From: Blastopirellula retiformator
Lineage (GTDB): Bacteria > Planctomycetota > Planctomycetia > Pirellulales > Pirellulaceae
Length of the DNA stretch: 64,000 bases
Reading direction: 5' to 3'
Assembly: GCF_007859755.1 (NCBI RefSeq)
Contig: NZ_SJPF01000001.1
Span: forward strand, 558,001 to 622,000
Shown here: positions 35,700 through 43,388 of the stretch, piece after piece
Layout of the letters: the number at the start of each line of letters is the position of its first letter
Position numbering within the stretch: position 1 is the stretch's first letter
The notes under the pieces: generated by a model
Seen by the model: the letters and a program-made list of their open reading frames with translations, nothing else
What the model was told of the DNA's origin: nothing
Databases searched by the model: none
Program-made: the position numbers and the translations under genes

Positions 35700-36872
35700 A
35701 TGAAAATCGCCTACCTCGACTGTCCCAGCGGTATTGCCGGCGACATGACCCTGGCCGCCATGATTGACGCCGGCGTGCCTCTTGAGCTACTGCAAGATGG
35801 CATCACCTCGCTCGGCTTGCCCGGCGTCAGCCTGGTCGTCGAAGAAGTGAAACGGCATGGCTTTCGCGCCCTGCATCTGTGCGTCGACCATGAGCCGGAA
35901 CATGCGCACCGCCATCTGCATCACATCGATGCGATGATCGACGCCGGCCAGTTGACCGCCGCCCAAAAAGAACTGGCCAAGCGGATCTTCCTGAAGGTGG
36001 GCGAGGCGGAAGCGAAGGTGCATGGGTCGACCCTGCAGAAGGTCCACTTCCACGAAGTTGGCGCTGTCGACTCGATCGCCGATATCGTCGGCGCCGCGAT
36101 CGGCTGGGACTATCTGGGAGTCGACCGAATCGTCTGTTCGCCGGTGCCGACCGGGACCGGTTATATCGAGATCGCCCATGGCCGCTGCAGCGTTCCGGCC
36201 CCGGCGACCGCCGAGATCTTGAAGGGGATTCCGCTCGCCGCTTCCGACGTTCCCTGCGAGCTGACCACGCCGACCGGGGCCGCGATCGTCGCCACGGTGG
36301 TTGATCAGTTTGGTCCGCTGCCGGCGATGCAGATCGACCGGATCGGCTATGGCGCCGGGACGAAGGAGCTGAAATCGCAGGCCAACATCGTCCGCCTGAT
36401 GCTGGGCGAAACGGCGGATCCGCTCGATAGCGATCAGGTCTGGGTGGTCGAAACCAACCTGGACGATATCTCGGGCGAGGTGATCGGGCATGCGTCGAAC
36501 TTGCTGCTTGAGAAAGGGGCGCTCGACGTCTATAGCACGTCGATCCAGATGAAAAAGAATCGCCCTGGCGTGCAGCTGACCGTACTGTGCGACGCCGCCG
36601 ACCTGGCGAAGATGGAGCGGATTTTGTTCCGCGAGACCGGGACTTTGGGGGTCCGGCGGTTTCCGGTCAGCCGTCACAAGCTGGTTCGCCGCGAGCACAC
36701 GGTCGAAACGCCGTTTGGCCCCATCGCCGGCAAATTGGCCTGGATTGAAGGGGGCCCGGCCAGTTTTTCGCCCGAATATGAAGCCTGCCGCGTCGTGGCG
36801 ACCCAGCAAGACAAGCCGCTGCGGAAAATTTATGACGCCGCCCAGGCCGCATTCGACCCAAATTCGCTTTGA
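35700..36872 (+). CDS. larC: LarC-type nickel insertion protein (TIGR00299/DUF111)
   Basis: 390 aa as one uninterrupted frame. MKIAYLDCPSGIAGDMTLAAMIDAGV is the family start, a His-rich segment HEPEHAHRHLHHID follows, then KVHFHEVGAVDSIADIVG, VCSPVPTGTG and ELTTPTGAAIV. The C-terminal half contains ETNLDDISGEVIGHAS and KKNRPGVQLTVLCD, so both LarC1 and LarC2 parts are present without the programmed shift known in Lactobacillus. In the lactate racemase pathway LarC inserts Ni into the pincer cofactor. larA, larB and larE are not in this window. Confidence 0.93.
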   Translation: MKIAYLDCPSGIAGDMTLAAMIDAGVPLELLQDGITSLGLPGVSLVVEEVKRHGFRALHLCVDHEPEHAHRHLHHIDAMIDAGQLTAAQKELAKRIFLKVGEAEAKVHGSTLQKVHFHEVGAVDSIADIVGAAIGWDYLGVDRIVCSPVPTGTGYIEIAHGRCSVPAPATAEILKGIPLAASDVPCELTTPTGAAIVATVVDQFGPLPAMQIDRIGYGAGTKELKSQANIVRLMLGETADPLDSDQVWVVETNLDDISGEVIGHASNLLLEKGALDVYSTSIQMKKNRPGVQLTVLCDAADLAKMERILFRETGTLGVRRFPVSRHKLVRREHTVETPFGPIAGKLAWIEGGPASFSPEYEACRVVATQQDKPLRKIYDAAQAAFDPNSL

Positions 36873-36897
36873 GCCGCAGGGCGAAACGACGTAAGAT

Positions 36898-36928
36898 ACG
36901 GCGAGACTTTTCCTGCTCGCCGTTTTTT
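36898..36928 (+). terminator. Intrinsic terminator after larC
   Basis: ACGGCGAG (36898-36905) pairs perfectly with CTCGCCGT (36916-36923) and runs into six Ts (36923-36928), 26 nt past the larC stop and 20 nt before the next ATG. Confidence 0.9.
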
Positions 36929-36948
36929 CTGCGCTAAGGCGGTTTCCA

Positions 36949-37524
36949 ATGGACTGGATTCGCGAATATTTGCCCTACCTCGCCTTCTTTGGCGGTTTGT
37001 CGATCCTGACCTGGATCATGCTGCGCCGCGTCTGGATGCGGCAGCGGAAGTCGAAGCGCGAAACCTCCAACGAGCCGCTCATCCGCGTTCCCTACACCAG
37101 CGATCGTCCCTTCACCATGAGCGGTGGGCCCAACGACTTGCAGCGGTGGCAAGCCGAGATGTTGACGATCACGCGACAGTTTCAGGCCGAACTGAATACG
37201 AAGATCCATTTCCTGCAACAGGCGATGACCCTGGCCGAGCAGGACGCCCAACGCTTGCAAACGCTGATCGACGCCGCCCAAGAACAAGGGATCGCCGCCG
37301 ACACCGTCGCCGTCGATCAGTTGCGGCAGGCGATGCAAGAGGCGGCCAAGATTGACCCGGGCGCGGCCCCTGACTTTGGCGTCATCACCGAAACCTTGTG
37401 CGACGCCAAGAAAAAGAACGAACTCTACGCGCTTTCCGATGACGGCAAGACGGTCGAGGAGATCGCCGCCGAACTCGAAATGGACCCGGCCGCCGTCGAG
37501 ATGGTCCTCAGCATGCGCGGCTGA
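36949..37524 (+). CDS. Membrane-anchored coiled-coil protein with a C-terminal HTH-like motif
   Basis: 191 aa. One membrane helix (residues 9-25) and a basic stretch (RRVWMRQRKSKRE) are followed by a helical/coiled region (LQRWQAEMLTITRQFQAELNTKIHFLQQAMTLAEQDAQRLQTLIDAA). The last about 25 residues, DDGKTVEEIAAELEMDPAAVEMVLSMRG, look like a small helix-turn-helix. No family name recognised. It sits 26 nt before a methyltransferase gene and is separated from larC by a strong terminator, so it probably has its own promoter. Confidence 0.75.
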   Translation: MDWIREYLPYLAFFGGLSILTWIMLRRVWMRQRKSKRETSNEPLIRVPYTSDRPFTMSGGPNDLQRWQAEMLTITRQFQAELNTKIHFLQQAMTLAEQDAQRLQTLIDAAQEQGIAADTVAVDQLRQAMQEAAKIDPGAAPDFGVITETLCDAKKKNELYALSDDGKTVEEIAAELEMDPAAVEMVLSMRG

Positions 37525-37550
37525 CCGACAACCAGCCGAGGAGAACGGCA

Positions 37551-38330
37551 ATGGAATACGCAGAGTACTTCCAAGAATTCCCCGACGCTTATGCGAAGAT
37601 CGTCGCCGGGCTTGATCGGGTCAACACGCTGTACGCCTATTTGATCGACCGAGGTCTGCTCGACCACGCCGAGTCGGTCCTCTCGATTGGCGCCGGCAGC
37701 GGCGATGTCGAAGTCCGGATCGCCAAACAGACCGGCCGGCAGATCGCCGTGGTTGAGCCGTCGCAGGTTTACTTCGATCAATTTATGCAAAACGTCGCCG
37801 AGGCAGGCGTCCAAGATTTGTTGATCGAGGCGCATCGGCAATCATTTCAAGATTTTCAGCCCCCGCGTCAGTACGACGTGGCGCTATCCCTCTTCTCTTG
37901 GTTTGCCTTTGATTTAGATCGAGCGCTGCTATTGAAGGCGCTCGCTTGTCGCGCACCGGAAGGCAAGCTACTGATCTGTTTGCCTACCGAAGATTGTCCG
38001 GCCAGCCGGATCTCGGCCTTTAGTCGCTCGGGCGGAATCAATCTTACCAGCGATCGATTGTCGCACTGGGCCCGCCGCGAAGGGTTTGACCATGATTATG
38101 ACATTTACCATGGCGTCGTCCCGGTCGGGCTTTATCTGCAGGAAGGGGGACTGACCGAACAGGGGAAGGACCTGGCCTCGTTTTTGGCGGCGACTCCCTG
38201 GGACGAGATGTCGGACGAGTTAAGGGAAGCCTCGCTGGAAGCGATCCAAGCGGGGCGTCGCGGCGATCAGATCGATCATGCCAGCGGTTGCTTGCTTTTC
38301 GACGCCGGGAAGCACGCCGCTGCCGAGTAA
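37551..38330 (+). CDS. SAM-dependent methyltransferase (class I)
   Basis: 259 aa. Motif I is VLSIGAGSGDVEVRIA; the acidic end of strand 2 is VVEPSQ; strand 4 is YDVALSLFSWFAF, where an Asn/Asp-x-x-hydrophobic usually occurs. The C-terminal part is helical and atypical (DLASFLAATPWDEMSDELREASLEAI). GAGGAG precedes the ATG at about 8 nt. Methyl acceptor unknown. Convergent with the ethylene-receptor-like gene (7-bp gap). Confidence 0.85.
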   Translation: MEYAEYFQEFPDAYAKIVAGLDRVNTLYAYLIDRGLLDHAESVLSIGAGSGDVEVRIAKQTGRQIAVVEPSQVYFDQFMQNVAEAGVQDLLIEAHRQSFQDFQPPRQYDVALSLFSWFAFDLDRALLLKALACRAPEGKLLICLPTEDCPASRISAFSRSGGINLTSDRLSHWARREGFDHDYDIYHGVVPVGLYLQEGGLTEQGKDLASFLAATPWDEMSDELREASLEAIQAGRRGDQIDHASGCLLFDAGKHAAAE

Positions 38331-38337
38331 CGGTCGC

Positions 38338-39030
38338 TTACGACTTGTACTCCGCTTGTTGCTCGCGGTATTCGTGCAGGGCGACCGCCACGGTACGCAG
38401 CAGCTCTTCGCGGCCCAGCGGTTTGGTGAGATATCCCGAGCAGCCTGCCTCCAGGGCGCCGTCGAGTCGGTGATTAGCGATTTGCAACTGCTGCCCCAAT
38501 ATCGCCATCGACGGCAGTTTCAATACTTCCGGCGTCAACCGAATCAACACCAAGACGGTCGCCCACGAGATGGCCGCGGTCAGCGCCTTGATCAAGCCCG
38601 AAAAGCGATAGACCGGCCACCAAGAGATGCCCGCTTCGACCAGGTGGCCAAAGCCGCACGCAAAAATAAACGCCGCGAACAACCAGATGATTTTGGGGAA
38701 CGGAATGTCGGGACGTTGCCGCAAGAAGCAGAGCAACACCACCGGAATCGTGAAGTAGGCGCCAAAGATGGCGATATCCGAAATCACATGCAGCCAGCCG
38801 GTCTCCAGCGTCCAGTTGCCGCAGTACCAGCGGGCCGGGTAGTCGCTGCCGTCGAAAAGCTTGGTGAAGAAGCGGGAGAAGGTATCGGCTTGGAACTCTC
38901 GGTTGGCGTCCGAGGACGGCTTCGCGCAGCAACTCGCCGGTTCCGGCTCCGCCGACCATGACGGTGCGCCCTGCGCCAAGCAAATCGCAAGAAAGAGCGT
39001 CCAAGCAAAGATGCGAACTAGCGAGTTCAT
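38338..39030 (-). CDS. Ethylene-receptor-like (ETR1_N) membrane sensor fused to a receiver-domain remnant, no kinase
   Basis: 230 aa from the ATG at 39030. A signal peptide (residues 1-27) and a Cys pair (C34, C35) come first, then three membrane helices (about 86-103, 115-134, 145-163). These align with the ethylene-binding domain of plant ETR1: HVISD (D85), AYFTIPVVLL, FIFACGFGHL (C125 and H129, the Cu(I) ligands) and IKALTAAISWATVLVLI. A short signalling helix (LGQQLQIANHRLD, about 178-190) joins directly to GALEAGCSGYLTKPLGREELLRTV, the alpha4-beta5-alpha5 end of a response-regulator receiver with its Lys (K203). PAS, kinase, ATPase and the phospho-acceptor Asp are all missing, consistent with an in-frame deletion of a hybrid kinase. 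Confidence 0.85.
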   Translation of the reverse strand: MNSLVRIFAWTLFLAICLAQGAPSWSAEPEPASCCAKPSSDANREFQADTFSRFFTKLFDGSDYPARWYCGNWTLETGWLHVISDIAIFGAYFTIPVVLLCFLRQRPDIPFPKIIWLFAAFIFACGFGHLVEAGISWWPVYRFSGLIKALTAAISWATVLVLIRLTPEVLKLPSMAILGQQLQIANHRLDGALEAGCSGYLTKPLGREELLRTVAVALHEYREQQAEYKS

Positions 39031-39329
39031 AACACCGCGCGTAACAAGTAACGTAAGTCTCCAGGTTCCAGAAGGGTCTGGCAAGCAACCGTACATTGCA
39101 GTTTCACGTATTTAGCGGCAATTCACGGGAAAGCGCGGCGAAGATGCCATCGGCCGAAACGCCCGGTTCGCCGCAGGGAGCGACCCGCTGCCAACAAGCC
39201 GAACAATCGGCACATTTGGCGTGCAGCTCCCCTGGTAGAGCCGATGTCGGCAAGTCTTCTACGCATGGTGTGGGGAAGGAGAATCCCCAGGTAAATTCCG
39301 AGGTTTTTGCATACCAGGTTTGCAACCTT

Positions 39330-39830
39330 CTACGCAATAATCTCCCGCGACCAATAGATAAAATCGGTCGTCGCCGGCTGGCCGCCGAGCGATTTGACCA
39401 GCATTGCCACCTGGCCGCGGTGGTACCACGAGTGGCCGAAGAGTTGCGTGACGACGTCTCCCATCTTGCTGCGGCAAGGTCCGGCGTCGCTGCTTTCGTA
39501 TTCAAAGTACTCTTCCAGTTCGGCGTCCTCTTCCAGGCTGCCGAGATAGCCTTCCCACAGTTGGTGCGACGCCGCCAGTTCGCCGGCCAGCGTTTCTAGC
39601 GTCCAGTCGTCGGGGAAGAAGTTGGTATGCATCTCGAGCGCCCGGCCGAGTCGGACCATCCACTTGTGCCGCGAAACGGCCAGGTGCGCCAGGATCCGAA
39701 TCGCCTTTTTGAACTCCGGCTCGTTCTGCTTATCGTCCGGGACTTCCGCCAGCGAGGCCAAGGTCTTGGTGTGGGCGTCTTGTTCGTAGGCAAGCCAACG
39801 AATCGCTTGATCGATCAGGGTGCGCGGCAT
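39330..39830 (-). CDS. DinB/YfiT-family putative metal-dependent protein
   Basis: 166 aa four-helix-bundle protein. The metal-site His residues are visible at HLAVSRHKW and in the family's C-terminal HSWYHRGQV. Members include thiol S-transferases (bacillithiol, mycothiol) and proteins of unknown role. No thiol-biosynthesis genes are nearby. ATG at 39830, 33 bp downstream of the PQQ-repeat lipoprotein stop and on the same strand, so probably co-transcribed. Confidence 0.85.
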   Translation of the reverse strand: MPRTLIDQAIRWLAYEQDAHTKTLASLAEVPDDKQNEPEFKKAIRILAHLAVSRHKWMVRLGRALEMHTNFFPDDWTLETLAGELAASHQLWEGYLGSLEEDAELEEYFEYESSDAGPCRSKMGDVVTQLFGHSWYHRGQVAMLVKSLGGQPATTDFIYWSREIIA

Positions 39831-39863
39831 TCGCGGTCAGCTCCAGGGTAAGAAGTCGGTTGG

Positions 39864-41147
39864 CTATTTTCCGCCAAGACAATACAGATGCGTGGTGGTT
39901 CGCCAGTAGATTCGCCCGTCGACGATCACCGGGCTGGCGAATCCGCCCCCTTGAAGTTTGCCGGACGAAACCTGCTCGAACTTGTCGCCCGCCTTCAAGA
40001 CGAACATTTCCCCTTGCTCGTTGGGGATGTAAATCAGGTCGCCGGCCAGCGTGGGCGAAGCGCTAAAACCGCCCCCCAGGCGTTTCTTCCAATGCGACTT
40101 TCCGGTGGCCGAGTCATAACAGACGGCAACTCCGTCGTCCCCCACGGCGTACACATACTCGCCGTCGACCAGTAGCGACGGTACGTAGACCTTCTTGCGA
40201 TCTTCCCAGATCACGTCGGAATATTCGAGTTCGCCGATGTCGTTGACGTCGATCGCCATCACAAAGTGATCGGGATAGCCGCCGCTGATGTAGACCGTGT
40301 CGCCGACCGCGGTCGGGGTGTTGGCGGTCGTTTCGGACAAGCCTGAGTAGGACCAGATCTGTTTGCCGGTTTGCGGGTCATAGCCGACCAGACGATCTTG
40401 CCCGCACAGGATCAGTTGGTCTTGGCCGCCAATCTTGCCGAGGGTCGGCGTGCCATAGCTGTTGCCGTCGGGACGAGACGTGCGCCAGACGATCTTGCCG
40501 CTGAGGCGATCGATCGCCGCGACAAAGCCGCTTCCTTTGCAGTCGGCCTGAATGATCAGCAGCGAATCGTAGATCAAGGGCGAACTACCGTAGCCATGCT
40601 GACTGTGGAAGGGGCCCGCCTTGGTCTGCCAGACGATTTCGCCTTCCGGCGAAACGGCGGTCGCCCAGATGCCGTCGTCGACCATGAACGTGGTGAAAAT
40701 GTTGGTTCCGTCGGTCGCCGGCGTCGCCGAGGCCTGGGTGTTTTTGGAGTGCATCGGCATGAATTTTCCTTCATGCACCGGCAACGACCAGAGCTGGTCG
40801 CCGGTCTGAGCGTCATAAGCGAGCAGCGACTGCGTATGGGCCGACTCGTCGGCCGTAGTTAAATAGAGCGTCTCCCCCAATAAGACAGGGGTGGAGTGTC
40901 CTTTTCCCGGAACTTCTGTGCCCCAGATTACCGTCTTGGCGCTGATCTCGGTCGGCGGAGTTGGTCCCACAGCGTGATTGTTATGCGTTTCTCCTCGCCA
41001 CCAGGGCCAATCGGCGGCCGAAACCGAGATCGGCGGAGCGACGCTTGCCAGCGGGCCGCTGGTGCGGACTTCTTCGACCGGCGGCGGAGGCGAACATGCC
41101 CAAGTGACCGGCAGCACCAGGGCCAGAAAGAAAAAATAATGTCGCAT
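39864..41147 (-). CDS. PQQ-like beta-propeller lipoprotein (BamB-like)
   Basis: 427 aa. The N-terminus is a lipoprotein signal (FFFLALVLPVTWAC, Cys 18). About seven blades follow with the PQQ-repeat signature, for example LLAYDAQTGDQLWSL, AIDRLSGKIVWRT, GYDPQTGKQIWSY and CYDSATGKSHWKK. The alternating A-x-D-x-x-TG-x-x-W pattern indicates a propeller of the BamB/quinoprotein type. Planctomycetes have many copies of this secreted family, so a role in outer-membrane assembly is possible but not shown. Confidence 0.88.
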   Translation of the reverse strand: MRHYFFFLALVLPVTWACSPPPPVEEVRTSGPLASVAPPISVSAADWPWWRGETHNNHAVGPTPPTEISAKTVIWGTEVPGKGHSTPVLLGETLYLTTADESAHTQSLLAYDAQTGDQLWSLPVHEGKFMPMHSKNTQASATPATDGTNIFTTFMVDDGIWATAVSPEGEIVWQTKAGPFHSQHGYGSSPLIYDSLLIIQADCKGSGFVAAIDRLSGKIVWRTSRPDGNSYGTPTLGKIGGQDQLILCGQDRLVGYDPQTGKQIWSYSGLSETTANTPTAVGDTVYISGGYPDHFVMAIDVNDIGELEYSDVIWEDRKKVYVPSLLVDGEYVYAVGDDGVAVCYDSATGKSHWKKRLGGGFSASPTLAGDLIYIPNEQGEMFVLKAGDKFEQVSSGKLQGGGFASPVIVDGRIYWRTTTHLYCLGGK

Positions 41148-41300
41148 TTGGCGTTTCTCTCGGTCGGGGGAGGTTTGTCATCATCGTAACGCGAAAAGGA
41201 ATGTGAAGAAATCCGCGTGGCTTTGAACGCCCAACTCGGGCATAATGCGCAGGATAGAGCGTTTGTAAGCCTGCATTTCGTATGGAGAGGAGTTCCGCTG

Positions 41301-42989
41301 ATGTTCACGCTAACTCGCTGGTTCGCGCCGTTGGTCGTGCTGATGATCGCCGCGCCGCTATGGGCGCAAGCCAAAGGTCAAGCTGATCTCGACAAAGCGG
41401 TCGATCTAAAGTTGTCGGCGGAATCGGTGGATGACCTGGAAAAGGTGATCAGCCTCAGCGAATCCGCCTTGAAGCAAGGTTTGTCGCCAGACGACGAGTT
41501 ATTCGCCAAGCAACTGCTGACGTCGGTGTTGTATCAACGCGCTCAGACGATCGCCTCCGGCATCTTCGAACGCCAACCGCCGGTCGCCCAGTGGAAAGAA
41601 CTTCGCGATCGCGCCTTGGCCGACGCCAACCGCGCGTTGAAGGTCGATCCGGCCTTGGGCGAAATGCAATTGCTGAAGTCGCGGCTCTTGCTGTTGCCCG
41701 ACGGCGACAAGGACGAAGCGAAAAAGGCGCTCGATGCGGCGATCGAAAATCTGAAAGAAGATGATCGACAGCTCTCCAAAGCGATCATGATGTCGGCCAC
41801 CTTGGAAGACGATCCGAAGCTGCAGATCGAAAAGCTGACCCGCGCCATCAAGACCGATGCGGACAACGTCGACGCCCTCAAACTGCGCGGCGTGCTTTAC
41901 ATGCAGCAGGAAGACTTCGAGAAAGCCTCGGCCGACTTGAAGCTGGTGATGGAAAAGAACCCGAACGACGTCGCCTCGCTGCAGGCCTACGCCGACACGC
42001 TGGCCGGGATGAAGAAGTTTGATGAAGCGATCGCCCTGCTCGACAAGACGGTCGCCGAACATCCCGGTTCGCCGGTCGGCTACTTGCTGCGAGCCCGGCT
42101 GAAGATTCTGGCCGAAGACGCCGAAGGAGCGATCGAAGACATCGACCAGGTGTTGGCCTTCATTCCTCGTTCGATTCCGGCCTTGATGATGCGGGCTCGC
42201 CTGTACGTCGAACTCGATCGTCCGGCCGATGCCGAGCAAGACCTTGATCGTATTCTGAGTATCGAAGCGAATCTGCCTGACGCGATCATTCTGCGAAGCG
42301 TCGTGCTGACGCAGCAGGGCAAGTTTGATCAGGCGATCAAAGACCTCGAATCGCTGCTGCAGCGCGATCCGAACAACGAGGCGATCTTGATTCAGATCGG
42401 CATGGTCTACAATTCCGATGATCAGCCCCGCAAGGCGATTCAGGTTTTTGAAACGGTGCTGAAGAAGGCGCCCGATAGCTGGCAGGCGATCAGCGGCAAA
42501 GCCAACGCGCAACTTTCGATCGGCGCCCAAAAGGAAGCGATCGAAGGATACGAAGCGGCGCTGAAGCTGCAGCCGAACGACGATCACATCTTGAACAACC
42601 TGGCTTGGGTCTTGGCGACTTCGCCTGACGATTCGCTCCGCAATGGCGAGCGTTCGCTAGAGCTGGCGAAGAAGGCCTGCGAAGAGACCAACTACGAAGC
42701 GCCCCACATTCTAAGCACGCTGGCCGCCGCGCACGCCGAAACGGGCAACTTTGACGAAGCGAAGAAGTGGGCTCAGAAGGCGGTCGACCAAGGAACCGAC
42801 GAAGACATCATCGGTCACCTGAAAGAAGAGTTGGCCAGCTACGAAGCGAAAAAGCCGTGGCGAGAAAAGCAAGAGACGCAAGAGAAGGAAGGCGTCGAAA
42901 TCATGCCGCCGGCCGCTGAGGAAAAGCCGGTGAAGACGATGGATGAAGACGCGATCGCTCCGGACGCCGACAAGCAGGCGGCCGAGTAA
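41301..42989 (+). CDS. Secreted TPR-repeat protein
   Basis: 562 aa from the ATG at 41301 with GGAGAGGAG about 8 nt upstream, the best ribosome site in its area; this start places a signal peptide (LVVLMIAAPLWAQA) at the N-terminus. From about residue 130 onward it is tandem TPRs (for example ADNVDALKLRGVLYMQQEDFEKASADLKLVMEKNPND and NNEAILIQIGMVYNSDDQPRKAIQVFETVLKKAPDS), at least nine units. The C-terminus is Glu/Lys-rich. Periplasmic scaffold or assembly factor; no catalytic part. Confidence 0.88.
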   Translation: MFTLTRWFAPLVVLMIAAPLWAQAKGQADLDKAVDLKLSAESVDDLEKVISLSESALKQGLSPDDELFAKQLLTSVLYQRAQTIASGIFERQPPVAQWKELRDRALADANRALKVDPALGEMQLLKSRLLLLPDGDKDEAKKALDAAIENLKEDDRQLSKAIMMSATLEDDPKLQIEKLTRAIKTDADNVDALKLRGVLYMQQEDFEKASADLKLVMEKNPNDVASLQAYADTLAGMKKFDEAIALLDKTVAEHPGSPVGYLLRARLKILAEDAEGAIEDIDQVLAFIPRSIPALMMRARLYVELDRPADAEQDLDRILSIEANLPDAIILRSVVLTQQGKFDQAIKDLESLLQRDPNNEAILIQIGMVYNSDDQPRKAIQVFETVLKKAPDSWQAISGKANAQLSIGAQKEAIEGYEAALKLQPNDDHILNNLAWVLATSPDDSLRNGERSLELAKKACEETNYEAPHILSTLAAAHAETGNFDEAKKWAQKAVDQGTDEDIIGHLKEELASYEAKKPWREKQETQEKEGVEIMPPAAEEKPVKTMDEDAIAPDADKQAAE

Positions 42990-43028
42990 TCGCAGAACCC
43001 CAACAGCAAGTGCCGGAAGGAGGCTGCT

Positions 43029-43388
43029 ATGGAAATCCTCGAATCGAACCAACTGGTTCAAAAGAAATGCAAACCGTGCGAAGGGGGAGTGGATCCCTGC
43101 ACGCTCAATGAAGCCAACGACCAACTGACCAAGCTCAACGGTTGGACCTTAACCAAAGATGGTCAGCGGATTCGCAAAGACTGGACGGTCAAAAACTTCA
43201 TGGCCGGCATGAATTTCTTCAATCAAGTCGCCGAAGTGGCCGAAAGCGACGGGCATCATCCCGATCTGCATATCGAAGGATATCGCAACGTCTGGATCGA
43301 GATCTGGACGCACGCCATTGGCGGTTTGAGCGAAAACGACTTCATTTTGGCGGCCAAAATCGACAAATTGCCGGTCGATTTGAAGTAA
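43029..43388 (+). CDS. phhB: Pterin-4a-carbinolamine dehydratase
   Basis: 119 aa. The family core is complete: KDWTVKNFMAGMNFFNQVAEVAESDGHHPDLHIEGYRNVWIEIWTHAIGGLSENDFILAAKID, with the catalytic His-His-Pro. The N-terminus has a CKPCEGG motif common in bacterial forms. It dehydrates 4a-hydroxytetrahydrobiopterin in the cytoplasm; with no phenylalanine hydroxylase nearby it may serve molybdopterin or a moonlighting role. GGAGG precedes the ATG. Confidence 0.93.
   Translation: MEILESNQLVQKKCKPCEGGVDPCTLNEANDQLTKLNGWTLTKDGQRIRKDWTVKNFMAGMNFFNQVAEVAESDGHHPDLHIEGYRNVWIEIWTHAIGGLSENDFILAAKIDKLPVDLK

Follow-up and report, generated by a model that had tools for sequence, protein, structure and literature searches.

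A probable in-frame internal deletion, likely recent and signalling-ending, in an ethylene-receptor hybrid histidine kinase gene of Blastopirellula retiformator

The gene and its predicted product

The window analyzed here is a stretch of 64,000 nt from Blastopirellula retiformator (contig NZ_SJPF01000001.1, positions 558,001-622,000; the genome it belongs to is labelled G000). The gene under study (Table 1) lies on its minus strand, a detail absent from the earlier note on this DNA, and starts with an ATG at 39030, from which an open frame with zero stops or frameshifts encodes 230 aa. The sole Pfam domain above its cut-off was ETR1_N (E 2.6e-36, 124.2 bits vs. a cut-off of 27), which was matched over positions 2-97 of the 97 in the profile. 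A receiver match at residues 191-214, covering profile positions 87-110 of 111, stayed below the Pfam cut-off (11.6 vs. 30.2 bits), the NCBIfam matches were of receiver type alone and all far under their cut-offs, and zero Pfam matches to HisKA or HATPase_c were found in the protein. A complete receiver with a phospho-accepting Asp was absent from both the Pfam results and the AlphaFold2 model. The earlier note described a signalling helix running straight into the last third of a receiver domain that keeps its Lys; Lys203, like D85, C125, and H129, is at the residue it gave, and the retained part is closer to the last quarter of the receiver.

Table 1 Coordinates of the window gene, its parts, and kinase-free ETR1_N frames in other planctomycetes
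Feature	Position	Strand	Basis
Gene including its stop codon; 230-aa ETR1_N protein carrying the internal deletion	38338..39030	-
N-terminal hydrophobic helix, residues 1-20	38971..39030	-	AlphaFold2 helix 2-20
ETR1_N ethylene/copper-binding three-helix domain, residues 77-172	38515..38802	-	Pfam PF25487 and model helices
Asp85, counterpart of ETR1 Asp25	38776..38778	-	Alignment and PMC11819568
Cys125 to His129, counterparts of ETR1 copper ligands Cys65 and His69	38644..38658	-	Alignment and PMC11819568
Signalling (coiled-coil type) helix, residues 175-197	38440..38508	-	AlphaFold2; aligned in congeners
Deletion junction, Leu-Glu-Ala-Gly word, residues 193-196	38443..38454	-	Congener alignment
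Receiver remnant with Lys203, residues 197-230	38341..38442	-	Pfam, alignment, AlphaFold2
Kinase-free ETR1_N with coiled coil, 214-259 aa	L079:3727-4404	-
Same type	L080:3496-4158	-
Same type	L110:4662-5306	-
Same type	L111:3826-4605	+
Kinase-free ETR1_N with ~150-aa Pfam-less C-terminal part, 296-364 aa	L082:3757-4659	-
Same type	L083:3328-4218	-
Same type	L087:3422-4513	-
Same type	L114:3859-4806	-
Same type	L115:4101-5021	+
Same type	L116:4004-4903	-
Same type	L117:2083-3009	+
Same type	L118:3963-4850	-

The AlphaFold2 model (built on a 33-sequence alignment, mean pLDDT 86.5) placed the three long helices of the sensor at residues 75-105, 112-134, and 141-171, and ended in a helix (207-229) within the receiver remnant, which had zero strands and would be too short to adopt a receiver fold. 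No solved structure for the sensor was found by sequence, and a profile search returned two unrelated chains (E 0.026 and 0.31). Residues 1-20 are probably a signal peptide or a membrane anchor. Past this signal-like helix, a Cys-Cys pair (residues 34-35, positions 38926-38931, minus strand) is kept in the window protein and in all three congeners; by analogy with the role proposed for Cys4 and Cys6 of ETR1 in PMC2799528, it could link the dimer.

At an offset that is always 60, residues D85, Y92, I95, P96, I122, C125, and H129 of the window protein correspond to D25, Y32, I35, P36, I62, C65, and H69 of ETR1, where Asp, Cys, and His serve for Cu(I) and the Tyr, Ile-Pro, and Ile belong to the binding site. 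The earlier note was right in recognizing D85, C125, H129, and three helices as ETR1 landmarks. Among 63 further homologues (a set without the congener orthologues, though with one row that is a paralogue from a congener), D85 was D in 60, C125 was C in 61, and H129 was H in 61; Y92 was likewise kept in 60 or 61 of the 63. The position of Phe136 is occupied by F in 90% of homologues and by Ser in the window protein and in 0/63 others; rare residues in the ETR1_N domain numbered four in the window protein vs. one or two in the congeners, still inside the spread of the other homologues. The importance of D25, C65, and H69 in ETR1 is taken from PMC11819568, and that of I35, P36, and I62 from PMC6586836. 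The spacing of D85, C125, H129, and K148 is identical to that of D35, C75, H79, and K98 in the ethylene-binding AzoEtr1, whose first 130 residues bind ethylene when fused to GST (PMC11819568). By these comparisons, the window sensor apparently has the complete set of Cu(I)/ethylene-binding residues in a predicted binding domain. AzoEtr1 (Azospirillum) and SynEtr1 (Synechocystis) are likewise reported to have an ethylene-binding domain with the corresponding essential residues, but both carry a histidine kinase, which the window protein lacks, and AzoEtr1 additionally has a separate response-regulator gene (PMC11819568).

Comparison with orthologues in the genus

The genus is represented by four genomes, all with ETR1_N, and the short form is confined to the window (1/4); the window's species is represented by one genome, and 29 of the 98 genomes sampled around it (the window's included) gave a match. 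The receptors of the three congeners (L064, L065, and L066) occupy stop-to-stop frames of 877-885 aa, or 839-845 aa from the chosen ATG, and all three scored for the layout ETR1_N-PAS-PAS-HisKA-HATPase-receiver; these are full-length hybrid kinases of the kind with which the earlier note proposed a comparison, and they sit at the same locus. In all three, the genes rnd, larC, hypothetical, methyltransferase-like, receptor, DinB, PQQ-repeat, tpr, and phhB follow in the same order as in the window (the names rnd, larC, tpr, and phhB serve here as working labels; in the window, domain scans covered the methyltransferase-like, DinB, and PQQ genes). The exceptions are a second PQQ-repeat copy in L066 and the methyltransferase-like gene adjoining the receptor (window 37551-38330), of which L064 retains no more than a short piece (L064:7855-8092). 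Upstream of the four receptor genes, an alignment of ~300 nt gave a mean column identity of 60%; as two of its rows start 12-21 nt off the ATG, it supports no conclusion about the promoters.

Both ends of the window protein align to the congeners, with identities of 73.0-75.5% for the N-terminal and 65.6-78.1% for the C-terminal part, and the locus, the N-terminal sensor, the signalling helix, and the receiver end are common to all of them; in contrast, two PAS domains, HisKA, HATPase_c, and the whole receiver are retained by the congeners and missing from the window gene. What is absent are 603 codons between two words, the first (LEAG) at codon 201 and the second at codon 804 in congener numbering, the latter reading LEAG in L065 and LAAG in L064 and L066. 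Further small gaps towards the two ends bring the difference in total length to 609-615 codons. The earlier proposal that the PAS, kinase, ATPase, and phospho-acceptor region had been removed in frame is thus directly supported by three syntenic full-length genes; its estimate of about 500 codons was correct as to the frame and too small as to the size. With two similar words bounding the gap (12 nt each, differing at three places in L065), the likely mechanism is a deletion between short repeats: the LEAG that closes the signalling helix may have paired with the L(E/A)AG before the last receiver strand, and a slip or a recombination would then have removed ~1,809 nt in frame in the window lineage. 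If ETR1_N and a receiver fragment had been joined independently, with no deletion involved, the protein would also read as ETR1_N plus a receiver tail; however, both parts align to one syntenic gene in three congeners and the checked neighbourhood of the window gene is the same as theirs, which makes such an origin highly improbable.

It is also very unlikely that an assembly or sequencing error skipped 1.8 kb of an intact gene. The assembly is a draft of 10 contigs, but the contig in question is 1.77 Mb long, the gap keeps the frame exactly, gene order around it is undisturbed, and the word at the junction, at 12 nt, is much shorter than those with which assemblers usually work. The collapsed assembly considered in the earlier note is disfavoured on the grounds of gene order and word length.

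In a product with no kinase, no ATPase, and no phospho-accepting His or Asp, a phosphorelay is impossible, and the usual mode of signalling is probably closed to the window sensor. We consider it likely that an ethylene-receptor hybrid histidine kinase, inherited vertically, underwent an internal deletion and that the window gene is the resulting allele, with its signalling lost. On this reading the product would still be inserted in the membrane, form dimers by way of its helices, and bind Cu(I) and ethylene; the pathway would have been lost recently, with the open frame left as a young relic.

Selection on the remnant and partners in the genome

Codon models were fitted on an assumed, not inferred, four-genome tree with long branches, ((L064,L066),(L065,window)). 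Over the 196 codons that precede the junction, the window branch had an omega of 0.130 and the other branches one of 0.127; a value of 1 along the entire window branch was rejected (twice the log-likelihood difference 26.5). When a final neutral phase was allowed, its best share of the window branch was 0, with a 95% limit of ~0.11 obtained by interpolation. For the 32 codons after the junction, omega = 1 was not rejected (0.50), a fit with no power. The same fit was applied to six neighbours, leaving out rnd (a stop in the L065 row and a degenerate fit) and the methyltransferase-like gene (a short piece only in L064): omega on the window branch exceeded the background in larC, pqq, tpr, and phhB, equalled it in hyp, and was lower in dinB, the only clear excess being that of tpr (0.186 vs. 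0.075, difference statistic 10.6). Set against these neighbours, the receptor is not unusual.

Private amino-acid changes in the receptor numbered 13 in the window vs. 8 in L065. The corresponding counts were 11 vs. 5 in larC, 11 vs. 6 in hyp, 27 vs. 12 in pqq, 33 vs. 14 in tpr, 10 vs. 1 in phhB, and 8 vs. 11 in dinB; given that the window exceeds L065 in 5/6 usable neighbours, the receptor counts are no sign of decay. The excess of private changes over L065 in these neighbours (window 35700-43388) is an observation on the genome in its own right, which may evolve faster or have branched earlier.

Relaxed selection on the part before the junction was therefore looked for with both the codon model and the private changes, and was not found. 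This caps the length of any neutral decay and does not by itself demonstrate function, as a recent event explains the absence of relaxation equally well. The earlier note left the choice between a decaying pseudogene and a kinase-free protein; compared with the congeners, the catalytic domains are lost and relaxed constraint on the remainder is not detectable, a combination that fits either alternative. The open frame, the lack of relaxation on the window branch, and the retained binding residues speak against a relic and for a maintained kinase-free ethylene/copper sensor, that is, a membrane dimer kept as a subunit, a scaffold, or a copper/ethylene sink, which could act through another kinase via the signalling helix or the new helical tail. 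Nevertheless, a recent deletion would give identical codon statistics, the short form comes from a single genome, and the F136S change affects a near-invariant position.

The genome was also searched for a replacement and for partners. The 599 lost residues (as in L065) gave 64 matches in G000, as expected for kinases, and none was a close copy; the best (49%) sits in a different frame of 1,102 aa, in which PAS, HisKA, HATPase_c, and receiver domains were recognized. With no orthologue-like match elsewhere in the genome, a relocated kinase was rejected. PF25487 was found once in the genome search, that is, no second ETR1_N was detected as a partner for a dominant effect, and the dominant action suggested in the earlier note becomes less likely because this search gave no other ETR1_N protein for the product to pair with. 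The window gene has no kinase neighbour: the downstream gene is convergent and methyltransferase-like, and the same-strand upstream neighbours encode DinB and PQQ-repeat proteins.

Kinase-free ETR1_N proteins in the phylum and what the probable deletion means

In a sample of 393 genomes from the phylum, 66 contained 90 ETR1_N matches, 12 of them in frames of ≤ 303 aa (the window's included). ETR1_N joined to a receiver end was found in 0 of the 11 other short frames. In L077 and L078 a frameshift behind the sensor, from mutation or sequencing error, splits a long receptor and leaves ETR1_N frames of 303 and 187 aa. L081 accounts for two matches in one gene broken close to a contig end, L084 has a distant ETR1_N frame of 145 aa (44.6 bits), L085 is a fragment ending past the first helix, and L086 is split and below the cut-off. 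L082 and L083 combine ETR1_N with a tail matching no Pfam family, and belong with L087 and L114-L118 to a group from three genera of one other planctomycete family (f25). L079 and L080 consist of ETR1_N plus a coiled coil; in the order of L079's genome, 22 of 201 genomes matched, several in short frames, and in that of L080's genome 3 of 9 did, with no further frame of the L080 type. Two other candidates for kinase-free proteins were rejected, L112 running into the start of a kinase at a contig end and L119 appearing frameshifted before its kinase.

L080, L110, and L111 are 52-58% identical to L079, with which they have the tail (G/N)RExR..(D/E)LKxE in common. In all four, a histidine kinase frame follows on the same strand, overlapping the end of the ETR1_N frame or starting immediately behind it; counted from their ATG codons, the subunit and kinase frames of L079 overlap by 4 nt. 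The sensor parts of these kinases comprise CHASE and PAS in L110, MASE3 and PAS in L111, and, in L079 and L080, PAS plus an N-terminal part otherwise without Pfam assignment. From their gene order, the four look like two-gene ethylene receptors; no description of kinase-free or two-gene ETR1_N forms was found in literature titles or abstract openings. The window protein resembles these split receptors in having ETR1_N and a coiled coil with no kinase in the chain, but a conserved tail motif of their own and a neighbouring gene for a PAS-histidine kinase set them apart from the window gene, which has neither. The window gene was consequently rejected as a split receptor, the downstream gene being convergent and not a kinase, the upstream ones DinB and PQQ, and the tail different.

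As kinase-free ETR1_N proteins exist elsewhere, a missing kinase by itself does not mean a missing function. A maintained sensor would draw support from these four genomes, in which kinase-free subunits adjoin separate kinase genes, and from ETR1_N fragments of ~130 aa that bind ethylene as GST fusions (PMC11819568 and PMC2799528), among them ETR1(1-128)-GST (PMC2799528). Against it count the lack of an adjoining kinase gene and the divergent tail, and on balance we regard it as unlikely. The more specific proposal that the deletion produced a working kinase-free ethylene/copper sensor dimer that was selected and coupled to an unlinked kinase seems rather unlikely to us; if true, such a sensor would parallel the apparent natural two-gene ethylene receptors of distant planctomycetes. 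The deletion allele described above is our preferred reading. The observation is sound, an internal deletion in a vertically inherited ethylene-receptor hybrid kinase explains it well, and the event was probably recent and probably ended signalling.

The locus offers a clean example of how a bacterial ethylene receptor can be stripped of all its output by a single in-frame event, and intact sister genes can be set beside it. Arabidopsis ETR1(1-147) and ETR1(1-349) are, like the window protein, sensors without kinase and receiver, and still form complexes according to PMC2799528; unlike the window gene, they are laboratory constructs in a plant and have no receiver remnant. If the remnant works, it would be a natural counterpart of the shortened plant receptors with which the need of an ethylene receptor for its kinase is probed. 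The kinase-free ETR1_N subunits encoded beside separate kinase genes may possibly be the more useful lead.
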